A stretch of DNA of 64,000 nucleotides from an uncultured Spartobacteria bacterium (GTDB taxonomy: Bacteria > Verrucomicrobiota > Verrucomicrobiia > Chthoniobacterales > Chthoniobacteraceae). The DNA is taken from positions 1-64,000 of the forward strand of contig CAIXGS010000054.1 in assembly GCA_903919125.1 (NCBI GenBank), written 5' to 3'. A program made the position numbers and the translations under genes. The notes under the pieces were generated by a model. The model was not told the DNA's origin, searched no databases, and worked only from the letters and a program-made list of their open reading frames with translations. This document shows, one piece after another, positions 3,498 to 11,188 of the stretch. Numbering within the stretch: the stretch's first letter is position 1; every line of letters starts with the position of its first letter.

Positions 3498-4034
3498 ATA
3501 ATTTTTCGGTTGAAGAGGTTGTGGCGTGGAACGAGATTCCCCAATTTTAAATACCCTGACAACAGCAAATGATTTTAGCGCGCCCGGCGGTAACGGCACG
3601 CGCGAGTTGCGCACACGAGTGTCCGGGAGTGTCTGTCCCCGACGCTCTTCTTGGCCTCCCCCGCCACCACCCCCGATTCGGAGCGAAGTACAACGGTGCG
3701 GGAGGCTCGCGATTTTTTGCGGTTTTAGGGCACAAAGTTGGTTTATTTCCGCCGCAGAGAAGCCTTTTCTCTTGAGCACTCAGAAAGTCTTAAAACCCGT
3801 GTTATTCGAGGTGGTAAGCTGGGCGTACGAGCGAACGAGTCTTGTGGCGATAACGACCCAGCCGTTTGAGATTTGGCCTGATGTTAGGAAGTGAGCGTAA
3901 AGCACGATTACCTTTTTGGGCCGAGCTTGATGGGGGCTCGGGCTGTGGCAACTTCGACCCTGCCGCATTCCAGTCTGAAACGTTAATAAGTGTCGAACAT
4001 AGCCTGCTGTGTGCTACAGTTTCAAACAAACGGT
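3498..4034. other. Intergenic stretch without a convincing gene
   Basis: This 537 bp gap separates the secreted cytochrome gene from the AbiE locus. It holds one exact copy of the 14 bp seam repeat (3627-3640) and a small inverted repeat CCGAGC/GCTCGG at 3921-3941. Several open frames cross it but none has a recognisable product or ribosome binding site. Its last 40 bp must carry the promoter of the AbiEi-like gene; no strong -35/-10 pair was identified. Confidence 0.5.
3627..3640 (+). repeat. Seam repeat copy 1 (GAGTGTCTGTCCCC)
   Basis: An exact 14 bp copy of a repeat that recurs at module boundaries between 3.6 and 9.6 kb. This copy lies left of the AbiE and first Phd/PIN modules and is inverted relative to copy 2 at 6430-6443, so the two bracket that 2.8 kb segment. 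Confidence 0.85.
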
Positions 4035-4643
4035 ATGCGAGACTTCTCTGTAACCCAAAAAATTACCCAGTTCGCGAAGGATCGTGAATTGGTGAGTATT
4101 GCCGAACTCCGCTCCGCAGGGTTTGCGGATATGGAAGTATCGCGGCTTACGGCCTCGGGGATGCTTGAACGGATAGGCCGCGGAATTTATCGCTGCCCTG
4201 ATGCTCCCCTAACCGAGCACTTTGATCTCAAGGTCATTTTCTCCAGAAAAACGAATGCTGTTTTGGCACTTCTAAGTGCGCTTCGTTTTCATAAGGTCGG
4301 GACGCAGGCCCCACGGGAGGTTTGGCTTCAAATTCCGGCAAAAGACCGCGTTCCTGCTATTTCTTGGCCCCAGATTCGCGTGATTCGCTCCCGAACGGCA
4401 GCTGCCTTTACCGAGGGAGTTGTTCTGCACGAGCTGGAGGGGATCCAGGTACCCGTAACGACGCCGGCTAGAACAGTTGCAGATTGTTTCAAACACCGCA
4501 CTCAAGTCGGCATTGATACGTGTGTGGAAGCACTGCGAGAAGTCCTGCGAAGTGACCGTAATGTCATGCCGGAACTCACCCGCCACGCTCAGATGAACCG
4601 CGTATTCCAAGTGATGCAGCCTTACATGGAGGCGTTGGTATGA
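4035..4643 (+). CDS. AbiEi-family antitoxin / transcriptional regulator
   Basis: A protein of about 202 residues from the ATG at 4035 (an alternative ATG lies at 3990). The N-terminal ~70 residues match the winged-helix AbiEi antitoxin domain (SIAELRSAGF, then LERIGRGIYRCPD), which in characterised type IV AbiE systems binds the promoter and represses the operon. The C-terminal part carries the usual VTTPARTVADCF segment. Its TGA overlaps the toxin's ATG (ATGA at 4640-4643), the normal AbiE arrangement with antitoxin first. The frame is intact, whereas the partner toxin is broken, so this is an antitoxin left without a working toxin. Confidence 0.88.
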   Translation: MRDFSVTQKITQFAKDRELVSIAELRSAGFADMEVSRLTASGMLERIGRGIYRCPDAPLTEHFDLKVIFSRKTNAVLALLSALRFHKVGTQAPREVWLQIPAKDRVPAISWPQIRVIRSRTAAAFTEGVVLHELEGIQVPVTTPARTVADCFKHRTQVGIDTCVEALREVLRSDRNVMPELTRHAQMNRVFQVMQPYMEALV

Positions 4644-5535
4644 AAAATGCCGCCACTTCGATCCGGGGGCGCCTTCTTAATCTTTCACGGCTGAGCGGAT
4701 TGCCCTTTAATGGTGTTTTGGAGCAGTGCGCGATAGGGCGTTTTTTGTGGAGGCTCAGTCAGAGTCGAGACCGAAGCCGGTTCATTCTGAAGGGAGCTCA
4801 ACTCTTTCGGCTTTGGAGTAGTGACCTGCACAGGCCCACTCGGGACATAGACCTGCTTGGCTACGGAGACTCTGACGCGACTTAGTTTGTTCGTAGATTT
4901 ACAGAGCTTCTGGAAGCAGGTGGGCATTTTGAAGACGGTCTTGTCTGGGGGCCTGTCAAAACCGAATCAATCCGTAATGAAATGGGTTATGGAGGAGTAC
5001 GTGTGCTCTTACTGGCCAGACTGGACGGAGCGCGAATTCCGCTGCAGGTGGACGTGGGATTTGGCGATGCCGTTACGCCTAATCCCAGAGAATCAGTCTG
5101 GGAGGGCCTGCTGGGTTTTCCTTCAGCAGAATTACTGGTTTATCCTCCCGAGACAGTTGTCGCTGAAAAACTCGAAGCCGCAGTGCTGTTGGGCCTCCGC
5201 AATAGTCGGATGAAAGATTTTTTAATCTGTATTGGCTGAGCTGCAACATGGAGTTTCAGCTAGCAACGCTTTGCGCGGCGGTCCGGGCGACATTTGAGAC
5301 GAAAGGAACGGCCTTGCCTGAGATGATTCCGGTGGCCCTGACCGAGACCTTTTCATCCGAGCACAGCAAGGTGACCCAGTGGGAGGCATTTCTCAGGAAG
5401 AGCAAACTCCCAGCGGGGGGACTAAAAGAGGTTGCCGTCAGGCTCCGGGCTTTCCTCACTCCCGTGCTCTTTCCCCCGTTGAATTTGGAACTGATGGTTT
5501 GGCGCCCGGGCTCAGGATGGAAGCCAGTGGACTAA
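4640..5535 (+). pseudogene. AbiEii-family nucleotidyltransferase toxin, disrupted by a stop and a frameshift
   Basis: Joined across two lesions, this encodes about 298 residues that read as a complete AbiEii/AbiGii nucleotidyltransferase, the toxin of type IV AbiE systems. The first part ends LKGAQLFRLW...RDIDLLGYGD, containing the nucleotidyltransferase core. An in-frame TAG at 4883-4885 interrupts it, and the same frame resumes at once with recognisable AbiEii sequence (YGGVRV, IPLQVDVGFGDAVTP, YPPETVVAEKLEA, NSRMKDF). At the six-T run 5218-5223 one T appears to be missing; adding it joins the frame to NLYWLSCNMEFQLA and on to the TAA at 5533. As written only an 81-residue N-terminal piece would be made. 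Sequencing error is possible for the T-run but less so for the TAG. Confidence 0.85.
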
Positions 5536-5748
5536 AATCTGGACCGCCACTTCGCTGGGGTCTTCTAGGTCTTTGAGCAAGATCGGGAGCAGTTTTACAG
5601 CTCTTCGTTACGCATCGATCAGCGAATCCCAAAGTGTCTCTCCCTTGCAGCCCACTTTGTCCCACGTTTCCCATCCGATGCACTGAATTTCGGTTCGCCT
5701 TTCTAAAAGACTTTGCAAAACCGTTCGTCTTTCTAAAGTGGTCATTAT

Positions 5749-5761
5749 ATAGTCAAACTAT
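5749..5761. promoter_or_regulatory. Inverted repeat at an antitoxin start codon, candidate operator
   Basis: ATAGT-CAA-ACTAT is a perfect 5 bp inverted repeat with a 3 bp spacer that runs into the ATG at 5760. Phd/YefM antitoxins usually repress their own operon by binding short palindromes of this kind; that this repeat does so is inferred from position only. Confidence 0.4.
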
Positions 5762-5987
5762 GGAAATGAGCGTTTCTGAGTTCAAAGCGAAATGCCTCGC
5801 GATTGTGGAGGACATCGCAAACAAAAAAGAGCGGGTGGTAATCACCCGGTACGGACGCGCCGCAGCCGAGGTTATTCCATTCACAGGCGCTACAGGCACG
5901 CCTCTCTTCGGGCGCGCTACCCATACGACCAAGATTCTGGGAGACCTCACCAGCACGGGGGAAACTTGGAATGCAGAATCTTGCTAA
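5760..5987 (+). CDS. Phd/YefM-type antitoxin, module 1
   Basis: A 75-residue protein. The N-terminal half has the Phd/YefM pattern (MSVSEFKAKCLAIVEDI, then VVITRYGRAAAEVIPF), which forms a DNA-binding dimer. The C-terminal tail would wrap around and neutralise the toxin. The start at 5760 was chosen because the family begins at that methionine; the open frame upstream has no family resemblance. The 3' end overlaps the following PIN toxin gene by 17 bp, which implies coupled translation. Function inferred: autorepressor and antidote of the PIN nuclease. Confidence 0.9.
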   Translation: MEMSVSEFKAKCLAIVEDIANKKERVVITRYGRAAAEVIPFTGATGTPLFGRATHTTKILGDLTSTGETWNAESC

Positions 5988-6378
5988 CATCGGGGCGGCA
6001 GTGCTCGACACGCACGCTTGGCTTTGGATAAGTGCTGGCGCTCCCGAGGCCGTCGCAACGGCCACCTTCCGAGGTCGCTGCATTGTGTCGGCCATTTCTG
6101 TCTGGGAAGTTTCGATGCTGGCTGAAAAAGGCCGCTTGGAACTCGCCCCCGACTTGGATGTTTGGATTTCAAACAACCTCACTGCCCCTGTGGAATTGGA
6201 GCCAATCTCGCCGGCAATTTGCATCGCCAGTTGTCGCCTGCTGGAATTTCATGGAGATCCAGCCGACCGACTGATTGTCGCCACAGCAATTACTCTCGGA
6301 CTTCCCTTGATTACCGCGGACAAAAAAATCATCGCGTGGAACCAATCCCAGGCTCGCCTTCAAATTTTGAGTCTTTGA
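5971..6378 (+). CDS. VapC-like PIN-domain toxin, module 1
   Basis: A 135-residue PIN-domain ribonuclease. All four acidic metal ligands are present: D13 (VLDTHAWLW), E46 (SVWEVSML), D99 (DPADRLIVATA) and D117 (LITADKKI). The DTHAWLW form is typical of the VapC subgroup paired with Phd-like antitoxins. The family cleaves structured RNA, often tRNA; the target here is unknown. It overlaps the upstream antitoxin and looks intact. It shares domain architecture but modest sequence identity with the second PIN protein at 8947-9348. Confidence 0.92.
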   Translation: MQNLANIGAAVLDTHAWLWISAGAPEAVATATFRGRCIVSAISVWEVSMLAEKGRLELAPDLDVWISNNLTAPVELEPISPAICIASCRLLEFHGDPADRLIVATAITLGLPLITADKKIIAWNQSQARLQILSL

Positions 6379-6416
6379 AAGGAACGATCCGTACTCACCC
6401 ACCCCTGTGAAAGACT

Positions 6417-6734
6417 TTAACGAGACGAGGGGGACAGACACTCACTCACCACCCCGACCAACGTGATCGAGCCCACCTGTACCGACACCGGATACTCCAC
6501 CTCCACACGCTCCGTGATCGGATGCCCGTTCACCAGCGTCCCACCACCAAGGTCTTCCACCTGCATCCGCTCCCCCGCGAGCCACAACCAAGCGTGTCTG
6601 GCGGCTACATCGTCACCGGCAATCGTGAACACATCAGCCGCCTCTTCCGTGCCGATCACAAACTGGGTCTCCCCAGAGTCAACCGCGCTCAATATCCCAC
6701 TGGGGCCGTGAAGAGTGAGGGACCATTGTTTCAT
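6417..6734 (-). CDS. Small FHA-domain protein whose 3' end runs into a seam repeat
   Basis: A 105-residue protein that is little more than one forkhead-associated domain: FVIGTEEAAD, then DDVAARHAWLWL in the phosphothreonine-binding loop and GGTLVNGHPI. The consensus SxxH appears as AARHA, so the conserved serine is replaced by alanine. The last codons (SECLSP) are encoded by the repeat at 6430-6443, which suggests the original 3' end was replaced when the repeat arrived. FHA domains read serine/threonine kinase signalling or secretion systems; no kinase lies nearby. The start at 6734 was chosen because the FHA fold begins there. Confidence 0.65.
   Translation of the reverse strand: MKQWSLTLHGPSGILSAVDSGETQFVIGTEEAADVFTIAGDDVAARHAWLWLAGERMQVEDLGGGTLVNGHPITERVEVEYPVSVQVGSITLVGVVSECLSPSSR
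6430..6443 (-). repeat. Seam repeat copy 2 (GGGGACAGACACTC)
   Basis: The exact reverse complement of copy 1. It lies 51 bp after the first PIN toxin stop and inside the 3' end of the FHA reading frame. Confidence 0.85.
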
Positions 6735-6870
6735 CAGCGTTACACTTACCGAAATAGACGAAGTGAGCAAGCCGGTGCTGGAGAACGTCGTAAGTCCAAA
6801 GTACAGGAACTCGATGCACGCAAGAGCACACTGAAGAAATCGCGCTGGGGGAGCAAAAAGCAAATTCCAC

Positions 6871-6889
6871 GCCTGACTTCAAGTCAGGC
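6871..6889. promoter_or_regulatory. 19 bp palindrome between divergent genes
   Basis: GCCTGACTT-C-AAGTCAGGC is a perfect 9 bp inverted repeat around one base, between the FHA gene (minus) and the PhzF gene (plus). A regulator-binding site or a dispersed palindrome are both possible. No regulator gene is adjacent. Confidence 0.4.
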
Positions 6890-7061
6890 CGGGTAAAGGA
6901 GAGAGTTGCTACGCCCCCATGACGGCTCAAGGCGTCAACGTCGCGCGCAAGTCCGACAAGAAAGCCACCGGTTCGCAGGCTGGAGACACGCAGGGAAAAG
7001 ATACTTTCTCCTCGGGCAATGTCGTAGACAATGAATTTACCGCTCCGAATGGAGTGATGAT

Positions 7062-7853
7062 ATGAGCCAGACAATCCACATCATCGACGCTTTCACCGAC
7101 AAACCATTCGGCGGCAATCCCGCTGCCGTTTGTCTGCTCAAACACCCCGCTGACGAACAGTGGATGAAACTCGTCGCGCGGGAGATGAACCTTTCGGAGA
7201 CCGCATTCCTTTATCCAATCGAAGGAGGCTTCTCGCTGCGATGGCTGACTCCAGCGGTGGAAGTGAAGCTCTGCGGCCACGCTACGCTGGCGAGCGCCTT
7301 CACACTCTGGGAGACCGGCGTGTTGAAGCCCGATGAAGCAGCGCGCTTTCACACCCTAAGCGGGTGGCTGACCTGCTGGAGAGAAGTCGACTGGATTGCC
7401 ATGGATTTTCCTGCGAAAAGCTGCGCCCCATGCGCGCCTCCCGTTGGTCTCGCCGTAGCCTTGGGCTGCGAGCTCATCGCTTGTGGTCTCAACGGCATGG
7501 ATTATCTCGTGGAGGTGGCAACCGAAACGGTGCTGCGAGGGTTGAAGCCCAATTTCTCGGCACTCTCGCTCCTGCCCGTGCGCGGAGTCATCGTTACCTG
7601 CCGGAGCGAATCGCTTGAGCACGATTTCCTTTCCCGTTTCTTTGCTCCGGCGGCGGGCGTAAATGAAGATCCCGTGACCGGTTCCGCCCATTGTGCCCTA
7701 GGTCCATATTGGCAGGCAAAACTCGGCAAGGCGCACTTCACCGCCTACCAAGCCAGCGAGCGCGGCGGCATCGTGAAGCTAAGTGTGCAAGGCGAGCGTG
7801 TGCTGCTGCGCGGACAGGCCTTGATGATGAGCAGGGCAGAGCTGCTGTGTTGA
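7062..7853 (+). CDS. PhzF-family isomerase/epimerase
   Basis: A 263-residue protein with the PhzF double-hotdog pattern: FTDKPFGGNPAAV near the N-terminus, catalytic-type glutamate E46 in NLSETAFL, CGHATLASA in the middle and DPVTGSAHC in the C-terminal half. In phenazine producers PhzF isomerises trans-2,3-dihydro-3-hydroxyanthranilate; most relatives have unknown small-molecule substrates. No other phenazine gene is present, so the metabolic role is open. A GGAG at 7051-7054 precedes the ATG. It sits alone between two seam repeats. Confidence 0.9.
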   Translation: MSQTIHIIDAFTDKPFGGNPAAVCLLKHPADEQWMKLVAREMNLSETAFLYPIEGGFSLRWLTPAVEVKLCGHATLASAFTLWETGVLKPDEAARFHTLSGWLTCWREVDWIAMDFPAKSCAPCAPPVGLAVALGCELIACGLNGMDYLVEVATETVLRGLKPNFSALSLLPVRGVIVTCRSESLEHDFLSRFFAPAAGVNEDPVTGSAHCALGPYWQAKLGKAHFTAYQASERGGIVKLSVQGERVLLRGQALMMSRAELLC

Positions 7854-7863
7854 GGGGCCGGAA

Positions 7864-7876
7864 GGGACAGACACTT
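7864..7876 (-). repeat. Seam repeat copy 3 (GGGACAGACACTT)
   Basis: A 13 bp copy just after the PhzF stop and 10 bp from the stop of the DUF1553 fragment. It forms an inverted pair with copy 4. Confidence 0.8.
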
Positions 7877-7885
7877 TTGCCCCCT

Positions 7886-8687
7886 TTAGTGGTTGAACAT
7901 AAATTCCGTGGAGTTGAGAAGCGCCCAGACTACGTCCTCATACGGGCGGACGTTGACGGGTGGGGCGGGGATCATTTCCTGAAAACCGGAGAGCTCTTCG
8001 CTTGAGGGACTGCGGCTCAGGCACTTGATGAAAAGTTCGTCAATCACCATGGCAGGCTGCGCCTTGTCCTTCACGTAAGCCTCCAGCGCACCTCCGCAAC
8101 TGAGCCGCGGATTGACGGTGTCTCCAACGGAGAAGTGCAGGGCCTGTGAAAGGGTCGGGGCGGATTTTGTTTCCGTTGAAGAGACGCTTCCGCGCGGACT
8201 GCGTCCCAAGCACTTGAAAACATCGTCGCCGTAGTTTGGACCCTCCGTGCCTCCGGAGGAGCGCGGATAATAATCGATGGCGCGCACGCCGTCAGGGAAG
8301 CCGCTGAAGCGGCGAGGCATTCCCGTGACGGCGATCACACTATCGACGAACACGTCGCCGCGCAGTCTGCGCAAATACGCGCGCGAAAATTGGCGTGTGT
8401 CTCCTCGGTTGGATGCATTGGGGGTGGAGCTGAGCTGGTAGGTGCGCGAGTTGCAGATGTCGCGCACCAGCGCTCGCAGGCTGAAGTTTGAAGCGACGAG
8501 ATGCGTGGCAAGGTCGGCGAGAAGCGGCTCGTTGACGGGCGGATTGGTGACGCGCACGTCGTCTACGGGATGGACGATGCCGCGTCCCATGAGCTGCGCC
8601 CAGACGCGGTTGGCGAGGTTGCGGCTGAAGAGGCTGTTTTCGGGCGACGTCAGCCACTGGGCGAGTGTCTCGAAAAGTGTCTGTCCC
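7886..8687 (-). pseudogene. C-terminal fragment of a DUF1553 (PSD1-type) protein
   Basis: The frame begins inside a DUF1553 domain (ETLAQWLTSPENSLFSRNLANRVW...MGRGIVHPVDD) and continues to a natural end (STEFMFNH then stop), about 265 residues. A full DUF1549/DUF1553 protein has several hundred more N-terminal residues with a cytochrome c-like segment; none of that is present, and an in-frame TGA lies about 20 bp upstream of the break. The break coincides with seam repeat copy 4, and the natural 3' end is followed within 10 bp by copy 3. Read as a gene fragment trapped between two inverted repeats; no start codon or signal peptide suggests expression. Confidence 0.85.
8675..8687 (+). repeat. 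Seam repeat copy 4 (AAGTGTCTGTCCC)
   Basis: A 13 bp copy, exact reverse complement of copy 3, marking the point where the DUF1553 fragment is truncated and the promoter region of the second Phd/PIN module begins. Confidence 0.8.
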
Positions 8688-8705
8688 TCCCAACCCGTGC
8701 TTCAC

Positions 8706-8740
8706 TTGACATCAGACAGAATATCAGACAAATTTGTAGA
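8706..8740 (+). promoter_or_regulatory. Promoter/operator region of Phd/PIN module 2
   Basis: A perfect TTGACA lies at 8706-8711. The octamer ATCAGACA occurs twice, at 8711-8718 and 8723-8730, spaced 12 bp, about one helical turn. No clear -10 box was found at standard spacing. The direct repeat between promoter and start codon fits an operator for the autoregulating antitoxin. The 17 bp AATATCAGACAAATTTG (8720-8736) recurs with 14 of 17 matches at 19529-19545. Confidence 0.45.
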
Positions 8741-8965
8741 ATGCAGACGACTGTCACCGAGCTGTTGCGGGAATTTCCTAAGGTTCGGAGGGCTGTGCTC
8801 TCCGGAGAAACCGTCATCATCCGCAGCCGAGAGGGGAATATGCGCCTCACTCTGGACCACGGAGAAGACCAGCCACGGGTAGGCGCGCTCCGAGGCCTGG
8901 TTCAAACTCAGGAGGACCTTGCCGCTCCAACAACCGTAGCTACCGAATGGAGTCCGTCTCTGTGA
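8741..8965 (+). CDS. Phd/YefM-type antitoxin, module 2
   Basis: A 74-residue protein (TVTELLREFPKVRRAVLSGETVIIRS, with the N-terminal fold of Phd-like antitoxins) followed by a charged tail. The start at 8741 is the first methionine after the promoter-like region; the open frame before it is antisense to the DUF1553 fragment. It overlaps the downstream PIN toxin by 19 bp, the same layout as module 1. Sequence similarity to the module 1 antitoxin is low, so this is a separate acquisition rather than a recent duplication. Confidence 0.82.
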   Translation: MQTTVTELLREFPKVRRAVLSGETVIIRSREGNMRLTLDHGEDQPRVGALRGLVQTQEDLAAPTTVATEWSPSL

Positions 8966-9348
8966 AGTATCTTCTAGACACACACGCCGCCATCTGGGCG
9001 GCTGAAGAGGATCCAAAGCTTGGCCAACGTGCGAAGCTCGCGCTCCTCGCCTCAGCTGCGGGCGACGCTTTGATTTCGGATATCACGCTCCTCGAAATCT
9101 CGATGCTGGTGAAAAAGGGTAAAATCCAAATTCAAATTTCGACTTCGGAGTATCTGAGACGCCTCCAATTCCTCTACCCTCCCGTTCGAATCACACCCAA
9201 CATAGCAACTCTTGCGATGGACCTCAATCTCCCACACGGAGATCCGTTTGACAGGATCATCGTGGCAACGGCCAGCGAGCTGCAGTTAACTTTGCTCACT
9301 AAAGATCATCACATCATGGAAAGTAAACTCGTGCCCACTCTGTGGTAA
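8947..9348 (+). CDS. VapC-like PIN-domain toxin, module 2
   Basis: A 133-residue PIN-domain nuclease with D11 (LLDTHAAIW), E50 (TLLEISML), D102 (DPFDRIIVATA) and D120 (LLTKDHHI), the complete acidic set. The ISMLVKKGKI stretch parallels VSMLAEKGRL in the first PIN protein, so both belong to the same VapC subgroup. Likely an RNase restrained by the overlapping upstream antitoxin. The module is framed by seam repeats at 8675-8687 and 9452-9465, 791 bp from first to last repeat base. Confidence 0.92.
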   Translation: MESVSVKYLLDTHAAIWAAEEDPKLGQRAKLALLASAAGDALISDITLLEISMLVKKGKIQIQISTSEYLRRLQFLYPPVRITPNIATLAMDLNLPHGDPFDRIIVATASELQLTLLTKDHHIMESKLVPTLW

Positions 9349-9451
9349 CCTCCGAGGGTCGGCAATCTCTGCGAGCGGACTCCGGGATGAGGACACAATC
9401 CTTTAACGCGCCCCGCGACGGGACGGCGCGTGAGCTTCGGGCGTCCATGGA

Positions 9452-9465
9452 GGGGACAGACACTT
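9452..9465 (-). repeat. Seam repeat copy 5 (GGGGACAGACACTT)
   Basis: A 14 bp copy at the right side of Phd/PIN module 2. Together with copy 4 it brackets that module in the same orientation as copies 1 and 2 bracket the first toxin-antitoxin segment. Confidence 0.85.
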
Positions 9466-9556
9466 CCCCCTCCCTCAGTCAAGTTGTCAGAACCGAAGTT
9501 ACTGCTCCACGCTAGTACATCTCTCGCTACGGATGCAGGGGGAAAAGGCTTTACCC

Positions 9557-9570
9557 GAGTGTCTGTCCCC
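9557..9570 (+). repeat. Seam repeat copy 6 (GAGTGTCTGTCCCC)
   Basis: An exact 14 bp match to copy 1. It forms an inverted pair with copy 5, with 91 bp between them, and lies just downstream of the 3' end of the truncated minus-strand AbiEii gene. Confidence 0.85.
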
Positions 9571-9697
9571 TGCGTCTTCCCTTGATGAAATCGCAGAGTG
9601 GAAATGTACGAATTTTACGGATTTGGACGACGGCACCAGAGAATTGCCATTGCGCCTCCATTGGAAGGCGGTTCACTGGATTCCCCCCGTCAGGAAA

Positions 9698-10357
9698 TCA
9701 GAGTTGAGCCAATGCAAGCCTGACTTGCTCTTCGATGACCTGCGTGAGGTAAGTCCACCAGGCTGGATTTTCCAGCGTGTCCCGCACCGTAGTGGCGGGG
9801 AGAAAGCGGCGCATTTCCTTTAGAAAATCTTCGCGCAACTGCGGCTCATCTTTCAGAGCTACGGAGCGCCTTTGCAGCAGTGATACAAACTCGTCCTCTT
9901 CGCGCCGATGGTCTCGGATCTTTACGGGGATAAGCTCTGCGGGCAACTCAACGCCCTGCTGCACCAGCCACGCTATGTCCCATAGATCTCGGTTTTTAAT
10001 GCGGCTCGCGCGGAAAGCCAGTGCGACCATTTTGTCGGCCAATATCTCCTCGCGGCTCTGTGCTTGCAGGATAAGGCCCGAGGTCCCGAGGTCGATCCCG
10101 TACAGGTTGCGCAACATCATCGGACGCGGGGCATGGCTGGGAATCGCGCAAATATCCAAATGAATGCGCTGCGCGGGCAGATGCCGCTGCCCCGAGCGGG
10201 TCTCAATGGTGAGCTTCCAAGTGGAAACATTGCCCCCAGATTTCACCGGTTCGCTGATGCGAACAGGCAGTCCATAACGGCTTTGCAGTCGTTCAGTGAG
10301 TACAACCGCAAGAGCCGAGAGATCCTCCTTTTTGAAACCACTGACGTGGGCTGGCGC
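9698..10357 (-). pseudogene. 5'-truncated AbiEii/AbiGii nucleotidyltransferase toxin
   Basis: About 219 residues in the frame directly after the IclR stop codon match the C-terminal two thirds of a second AbiEii subtype: FKKEDLSALAVVLTERLQ, LPAQRIHLDICAIPS, RNLYGIDLGTSGLI, EEILADKMVALAFR, IKNRDLWDIAWL. The N-terminal nucleotidyltransferase core (the glycine-serine motif and first catalytic aspartates) is missing; homology stops where the IclR gene ends. A GTG near 10246 could start a shorter piece but would remain inactive. No antitoxin is adjacent. It differs from the AbiEii at 4640-5535, so two unrelated AbiE toxins have decayed in this region. Confidence 0.85.
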
Positions 10358-11188
10358 TCAAGCGTGCGGAACGCTGACGAAATGCGGCGCATTCGGCCGG
10401 TAACCCAAATGAAGCGAAAGCTGATCGGCGAGCTGCTTCACCTTGAGTCCTAGTTTTTCAAAAGCGCCCGCCGTGACGCGATCCGAGGGGCCGCTGATCC
10501 AGATCGAGGCGAGCGGATGGCCGCGATGATCGAACACAGGCGCGGCGACGCAGGCAAAGGTTTCGCTCTCTTCTCCACGGTCGAGGGCGAAGCCTTGCGT
10601 TTTTACCTTCCTGAGTTCGGCCAGGTAGGCAGTGGCGCTGGTGATCGTGTGGCGGGTGTGTTTGGTGAACTTGATCTGCTGCACGAATGCCTTCTGTGCC
10701 TCGGGGCTCCAGCACGCGAGCATGGCCTTTGCGGGCGCGGCAGTGTGCAGGGGGAAGGCATGACCGATTTCAACCATGACCTTCACCGGATGCGACGACG
10801 GCACCTGATCAAGCACTACGCCGTGATTGCCGGCCAGCGTTCCCAGCAGCGCGGTTTCGCCCGTGGCATCGCGCAAGGCGATGAGGATGAGGGCGGCGGC
10901 TTGGGTGAGGCGCTCGCCGCCTACGGCCGCATGACCGAGGCTGAGGAGCTTGCGGCTGGCGCGGTAGGTCTTCGTGTCTTCATCGCGCTCGACGTAGCTC
11001 CGAAGGGTGAGCGTGGTGGCGATGCGGAAGACCGAGTTCTTCGGCATCTTCAGCGCTTCGGTCATCGTGGTGAGCGTCATGCCTTCCGGGTGCCGCGAGA
11101 GCAGCTCCAGCAGATCTAGCGTGCGCCCCAAGATGGGCACCATGTAGCGGCTGAGAGGGTTGACGGCAGGCTTCCGAGCTTTAGGCAT
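10358..11188 (-). CDS. IclR-family transcriptional regulator
   Basis: A 276-residue regulator. The N-terminal winged helix-turn-helix lies at about residues 17-75 (LGRTLDLLELLSRHPEGMTL...MPKNSVFRIATTL), followed by the IclR effector domain (FPLHTAAPAKAMLA, GFALDRGEESETFACVAAPVFD, ASIWISGPSDR). The start at 11188 was chosen for family length; the frame is open to 11245. It is divergent from an SDR remnant and a beta-helix gene. IclR proteins often control the divergent catabolic gene; here the probable target, a dehydrogenase, survives only as a fragment. Paired TTTG/CAAA sites upstream may be its operators. Confidence 0.92.
   Translation of the reverse strand: MPKARKPAVNPLSRYMVPILGRTLDLLELLSRHPEGMTLTTMTEALKMPKNSVFRIATTLTLRSYVERDEDTKTYRASRKLLSLGHAAVGGERLTQAAALILIALRDATGETALLGTLAGNHGVVLDQVPSSHPVKVMVEIGHAFPLHTAAPAKAMLACWSPEAQKAFVQQIKFTKHTRHTITSATAYLAELRKVKTQGFALDRGEESETFACVAAPVFDHRGHPLASIWISGPSDRVTAGAFEKLGLKVKQLADQLSLHLGYRPNAPHFVSVPHA

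Follow-up and report, generated by a model that had tools for sequence, protein, structure and literature searches.

How did the last third of a DUF1553 gene come to lie between two inverted copies of a short repeat? The window, a 64,000-nucleotide stretch of DNA from an uncultured Spartobacteria bacterium, contains such a fragment, and an earlier note on this DNA had described it as a discrete segment that arose by repeat-mediated capture or deletion rather than by random decay. The features of the region are given in Table 1, in which G numbers denote related genomes and C numbers contigs.

Table 1. Features of the region around the DUF1553 fragment (positions are those of the window)
Feature	Position	Strand	Evidence
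Outermost repeat copy	3629..3639	-	motif scan
Imperfect repeat copy, 1 mismatch	5634..5644	-	motif scan
Phd-PIN toxin-antitoxin module, left of the copy at 6431	5723..6411	+	92% nt to G008:C205
Repeat copy, cut C-terminal side of FHA remnant	6431..6441	+	motif scan
5' remnant of FHA-domain gene, cut about 11 nt from repeat	6452..6893	-	FHA 22.1 bits; 88% nt to G003:C169
PhzF-like gene between FHA remnant and DUF1553 fragment	7062..7853	+	PF02567 1-278/281
Repeat copy GGGACAGACACTTTT, 3' side of fragment	7864..7878	+	one of 161 exact genome copies of GGGACAGACACT
3'-terminal third of DUF1549/DUF1553 gene	7883..8667	-	PF07587 domain; 90% nt to G003:C65:3278-4062; 76% nt to G002
Inverted repeat copy, truncated 5' side of fragment	8673..8687	-	inverted pair
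Toxin-antitoxin-like (phd-PIN) module	8703..9358	+	91% nt to G001:C94, 90% to G004:C109
117-bp element between inverted copies	9453..9569		minus-strand end 88-90% to transposase 5' ends at C69, C84, C36
Truncated AbiEii remnant	9581..10346	-	PF08843 85-236/238; 90% nt to G004:C293, 85% to G003:C115

The minus-strand frame at 7886-8674 encoded the C-terminal domain of a DUF1553 protein, matching PF07587 from position 4 to position 243 (of 244) with E 2e-37. It was open over 262 codons, ended in a stop codon at 7886-7888, and had no start codon on its cut side. The closest protein relatives, G003:C65:3284-4063 (92% amino acid identity) and G002:C25:19549-20328 (85%), were parts of open frames of 744-748 codons. 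In these two relatives the orthologous gene was whole (739-743 aa; 739 aa in G003) and was the final gene of an operon, the other members of which, judged from their sequences, appear to be WD40/cytochrome-like, DUF1501-like, and 816-aa genes.

The inverted pair named in the earlier note was present, with arms at 7855-7878 and 8673-8696 that were 24 nt long and 88% complementary. On the 5' side of the fragment, the nucleotide alignment stopped at 8667 with G003 and at 8665 with G002, and the repeat began at 8673 (15-mer AAAAGTGTCTGTCCC) or 8677 (11-mer). Homology therefore broke beside the copy, as had been claimed, but not at the adjoining base, since it fell about 6-10 nt short. Past this cut the orthologues stayed coding, and the window crossed about 6 nt and then entered AAAAGTGTCTGTCCC. 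A continuation of DUF1553 homology beyond 8687 in another frame was searched for and was not found; the coding sequence of the orthologues had no counterpart there, and the window from 8703 onwards aligned instead with a phd-PIN module, unrelated to DUF1553, that occurs in G001 and G004. On the 3' side, G003 and G009 agreed with each other for 48 nt past the stop codon; the window agreed for 3 nt, followed by GGGC and then the repeat. The stop codon lies 10 bp from the 7864-7876 copy, as the earlier note stated, but it is not merely the natural end of the segment, because this side is broken as well. As judged from these alignments, the two ends of the fragment are genuine breakpoints, each 4-10 nt from inverted GGGACAGACACTTTT copies.

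Substitutions in the fragment on the branch of this genome numbered 4, 1, and 18 at codon positions 1, 2, and 3, respectively, and codon changes were 12 synonymous versus 3 non-synonymous. The pattern suggests that most of the substitution history of the fragment was that of a selected gene, and because the branch substitutions still showed protein selection, the cut is probably young.

Whether the segment was captured or left behind was to be decided, according to the earlier note, by a donor copy in the same genome or by an intact orthologue at this locus in a relative. Neither comparison settled the matter: no donor copy was found among 43 matches in the genome (the best other match had 43% identity), and in G003 and G002, where the gene is whole, it sat at other loci than this one. 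The neighbours of the orthologues in G003, G002, and G009 differed from one another. A simple in-place deletion was rejected when 20 kb of G003 C65 was compared with this genome. The search returned the fragment, a neighbouring block (203-1586) that lies here on another contig, C79, and otherwise weak paralogue matches only; consequently, the rest of the operon is gone here and the fragment is not beside its old neighbour. With the remainder of the operon absent and the neighbour of the G003 copy elsewhere, capture and two-sided loss appear indistinguishable for this fragment at the level of sequence. When G000:C79:39710-44420, from this genome, was aligned with the G003 block, about 3.3 kb extra was present here and missing in G003, and this break had no repeat.

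The fragment was one piece of a mosaic. In a search of the 12 genomes of the genus, pieces of 3780-10420 matched unrelated positions in relatives. At the cut point of the FHA gene, reading frames of hundreds of amino acids (up to 889) ran across in the relatives. FHA genes form a large family with many members in the genus; one at G000:C16 (L145) is a single open frame of 1221 codons, and what seem to be remnants of both gene ends, 5' and 3', also occur here, with a repeat copy at the cut in each. The phd-PIN module right of the fragment consisted of an antitoxin-position ORF from 8741, which had no Pfam match, and a PIN protein at 8947-9348. The element at 9453-9569 folded as a long hairpin (z -2.4). 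The AbiEii remnant had its left boundary at this repeat element and its right cut, at 10346, lacked a repeat, which indicated that not every cut needs one. A short ORF following the AbiEi gene occupies 4640-4885 on the left side of the mosaic, and the ORF of the AbiEii remnant, 9701-10246, is on the right.

We then considered the repeat itself. The window had 7 occurrences of GGGACAGACAC with at most one mismatch, where 0.86 would be expected, and no shuffle reached this count. Exact copies of GGGACAGACACT numbered 161 in the 4.34-Mb genome, and the reversed-motif control gave 0; among the 57 genomes examined, 14 had at least 1 copy and 6 at least 10. The copies had about 20-25 nt in common (consensus CGCAGGGGACAGACACTTT), and the consensus upstream was CGCAG, with GCAG present at 46 of the 104 sites. 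The column frequencies contained no palindrome, and a palindromic REP reading of the repeat was discarded. In G020, contigs C3, C5, and C7 (L048-L050) carry repeat runs with a spacing of about 30-50 nt and one orientation per run, several of them near contig ends. Two other short repeat families unrelated to the motif (L059:5487-5577 and L056:1252-1330) have many copies in G009 and in this genome.

Among 100 listed copies of the 161, neighbouring pairs were oriented ++ in 14 cases, +- in 20, -+ in 20, and -- in 25 (79 pairs). The orientation of neighbouring copies is random, and the inverted pair around the fragment is not special; the inverted bounding on which the earlier note had relied was not a telling feature. 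A rule of cassettes with fixed terminal inverted repeats was likewise abandoned, given the random orientation and one segment capped by copies in both orientations. The copy that capped the 5' end of this 255-bp segment was oppositely oriented from one locus to another, and segments are thus without the fixed ends of a transposon.

The repeat was traced to a transposase element. A search of this genome for Y1 transposases found five places. The transposase on C36 is 334 aa long and scored 44 bits with Y1_Tnp (PF01797; cut-off 23), and its HUH-type and Y.DLNP residues (H62, H64, Y177, and D179-L-N-P) were invariant in 11 sequences. The repeat, GGGGACAG/GGGACAGACAC, stood about 54 nt before the transposase start, and an inverted CTGTCCC stood 40 nt after the stop. 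GGGACAG was found 52-86 nt upstream in 16 of 21 homologues in relatives (23 homologous loci had the N-terminus, and two with upstream sequence that was too short were dropped), as against a same-strand density of 0.77 per kb. In a wider set it was the commonest upstream 7-mer, at 18 of 71 loci; a search of the species-genome collection had given 80 loci, and the set comprised those with enough upstream sequence, with starts estimated where the match began late. A transposase match was present in five of the six genomes with at least 10 copies (in G009 as a fragment only) and in 9 of the other 51; the sixth, G006, had 19 repeat copies, and the transposase search there gave no match. These comparisons identify GGGACAGACACT as the terminal sequence of an element of the TIRYT/TIRtron kind, with a RAYT-like Y1 (HUH) transposase. 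In C69 the transposase gene itself was cut at a copy. The right end of the element (...CTTAACTAAGTGCCATTC) directly abuts the repeat at several sites (L391, L064, L145, L062, L054, and L057), an arrangement that resembles the meeting of right and left ends in an excised circle, or else a targeted insertion.

TIRYT/TIRtron elements are described as RAYT-like genes between inverted repeats that share GGGGWSAS (Di Nocera et al. 2013, PMC3733652). According to PMC3733652 and PMC6006769, these repeats keep a set distance from the gene, with further copies across the genome, single or grouped, and the elements are placed mainly in TnpA-Y1 subclass 2.1, in which subclass 2.3 is nested (the latter in PMC6006769). 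The C36 element agreed in having a RAYT-type Y1 HUH transposase, in the inverted terminal repeats flanking the gene, of which GGGGACAG fits GGGGWSAS, and in the set repeat-to-gene distance in the homologues counted above. The segment at 7864-8687 differed, since between its inverted copies there was a DUF1553 fragment only and no tyrosine transposase gene. The sections of PMC3733652 and PMC6006769 consulted contained no account of repeat copies acting as breakpoints within genes or as borders between island segments. In the literature searched, the word TIRYT was met in these two papers only. The closest papers met in searches on Verrucomicrobia RAYT, TnpAREP gene capture, REP junctions, adjacent deletion, and transposases with toxin-antitoxin in Chthoniobacteraceae were PMC3733652, PMC6006769, and PMC8266576; for the motif letter strings, the titles among the matches listed concerned medical, animal, plant, yeast, and primer-design work.

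The repeat was also compared with other systems. It is like the REP/REPIN/RAYT system in having a Y1 transposase and short non-coding copies dispersed through the genome, some of which form inverted pairs (the 9453-9569 hairpin), but it has no GTAG/GTGG tag at a hairpin foot and is not palindromic. With the NCBIfam model NF047646 (REP_Tyr_transpos), the C36 transposase scored 61.9 bits, below the curated cut-off of 80. With regard to the subterminal hairpins of IS200/IS605, folding of the element ends gave z -0.56 on the left (C36, no better than shuffles) and z 0.58 on the right. The likeness to an integron array lay in many small toxin-antitoxin-like modules split by a common site, with a module content that varied among relatives; G009 and this genome even kept the order of modules with extra modules between them. 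Cassettes moved by an unseen site-specific recombinase, with the repeat as its attachment site, would give such arrays. However, the sites were randomly oriented, unlike co-oriented attC arrays, no attC-like core was seen by eye, and the site belongs to the Y1 transposase, so that we regard an integron-like origin as very improbable.

The association between copies and breaks was evaluated in four islands of this genome (window 3780-10420, C12, C24, and C31) with 40 copies, using matches of at least 200 nt and a 15-nt margin. None of the 180 listed homologous stretches crossed a copy, whereas shifted copies were crossed by 60 on average and by 17 at the minimum (5000 shifts). Distinct stretch ends within 30 nt of a copy numbered 33 of 159 (null 7.5, maximum 22). 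Among the matches below 200 nt, which this count leaves out, were dispersed small elements with a copy inside them. In C31, two matches (4700-5436 in G009 and 4714-5437 in G011) ended inside a copy common to those genomes. One explanation would be that the repeats are passengers, which favour broken, gene-free DNA in which ordinary decay had cut the genes beforehand; the islands in which copies sit do abound in toxin-antitoxin modules and remnants, and such repeats are mostly extragenic according to PMC3733652. Yet when random placement of copies was confined to bases that no stretch covers, and the match list was shortened, 3.9 near-boundary ends were expected and 29 of 102 observed (maximum 13 in 5000). 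In addition, both ends of the fragment and a break after GACACT common to three genomes (below) require the break to be at the repeat, and the open frame and selected substitutions argue against long decay. We therefore consider passenger insertion unlikely. Stretches end beside copies far above chance, with gene avoidance allowed for.

When 185 copies in five genomes were compared by arms of at least 40 nt, 13 pairs shared the left arm, 26 the right, and 0 both. Many pairs sharing the right arm were transposase 5' ends, as expected of element copies at new sites. The L001/L067 pair agreed over 238 nt to the left and about 30 nt to the right, showing that breaks do not invariably coincide with the repeat. 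The gap between repeat and homology was 4-10 nt at the fragment and up to 30 elsewhere, which is without explanation. No pair of empty and filled sites was found for any copy, and insertion of the repeat itself was thus unseen.

Besides the DUF1553 and FHA genes, frames that continued across the cut in relatives, with an excess of third-position mismatches, were found at C24:4071, C24:4766, C12:9821, and C31:2440 (positions within the extracted stretches). In G009:C41 a gene, presumably HepT-like from its arrangement, was cut at a copy, and the 96% identical array of this genome kept the longer gene. At another C31 junction, this genome and G009 were 98% identical over 737 nt ending in ...GACGCAGGGGACAGACACT and then unrelated; G011 (82%) had the same end with one change, followed by a third right flank. 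The left side was thus common to three genomes through GACAGACACT (...GACACT), and the right flanks were entirely different. Misjoining of short-read contigs at the repeated 20-25 nt word might be suspected in a draft of 87 contigs, several of which end near copies. The word is, however, shorter than usual assembly k-mers, the pattern recurred in the assemblies of G009, G011, G003, and G020, the same segment-plus-repeat units occurred in two genomes at 97-99%, and the fragment lies inside a 113-kb contig; an assembly artefact is accordingly given hardly any weight.

The main rival is recombination by the host. The transposase would merely have scattered the copies, and the islands would then have been rearranged through deletion, inversion, and reshuffling by homologous or short-homology recombination between the copies, or by replication slippage, with a copy remaining wherever segments were joined. 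Such recombination would yield many of the same patterns: it accounts for the random orientation, the unrelated arms at the same repeat, and the capping in either orientation, and the copies have about 20-25 nt in common. This length is short for RecA-type exchange. Recombination also needs a copy inside each gene before the cut, and no copy-bearing gene with both halves intact was seen in the four islands, in line with the absence of crossing stretches. We regard it as possible, although the less probable course.

In this Chthoniobacteraceae-type genome, then, copies sit at the breakpoints between unrelated segments, and the DUF1553 fragment is one such segment, with a break next to a copy on either side. 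On balance, it seems probable, if only just, that breakage and joining linked to the transposase took place at the repeats. Weighing against this reading are the missing pairs of empty and filled sites, the random orientation of copies, the 255-bp segment capped in either orientation, the gaps between repeat and homology, the repeat-free cut at 10346, the L001/L067 pair, the copies of G006 without a transposase match, and the short matches with a copy inside. The part of the earlier note that called for a repeat-mediated event has held up in that both ends break at copies and repeat-linked breakage is seen genome-wide. In this reaction, the transposase would act on single strands, cutting them at the repeat or immediately behind it, putatively after GACAC (GACAC/T), and would join the freed end to distant DNA. 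Segments would thereby be caught between repeats, or DNA adjoining a repeat would be lost; the final 785 bp of the DUF1553 gene would have been captured between two copies or would have remained after losses from both. PMC8266576 reports that E. coli TnpAREP cleaves single-stranded REP DNA between C and T, with formation of a phosphotyrosine at the 5' side and a free 3' OH, and that it transfers strands and makes some distant cuts. A related enzyme that cut at GACAC/T and joined the end to a distant cut would give junctions of the kind observed.

We suggest, tentatively and with considerable doubt, a wider role in which TIRYT repeats may serve as break and join sites that build mosaic islands of gene cassettes, with toxin-antitoxin modules and gene pieces, through single-strand cutting and joining after GACAC/T, with a Y1 transposase in the place of an integrase. 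The junction with the same left and different right sides after GACACT offers a direct test site. If the terminal repeats of the abundant RAYT/TIRYT proteins are breakpoints, to which the comparison between relatives points, then in Verrucomicrobiota they would give rise to truncated genes, captured gene pieces, and newly assembled toxin-antitoxin islands.
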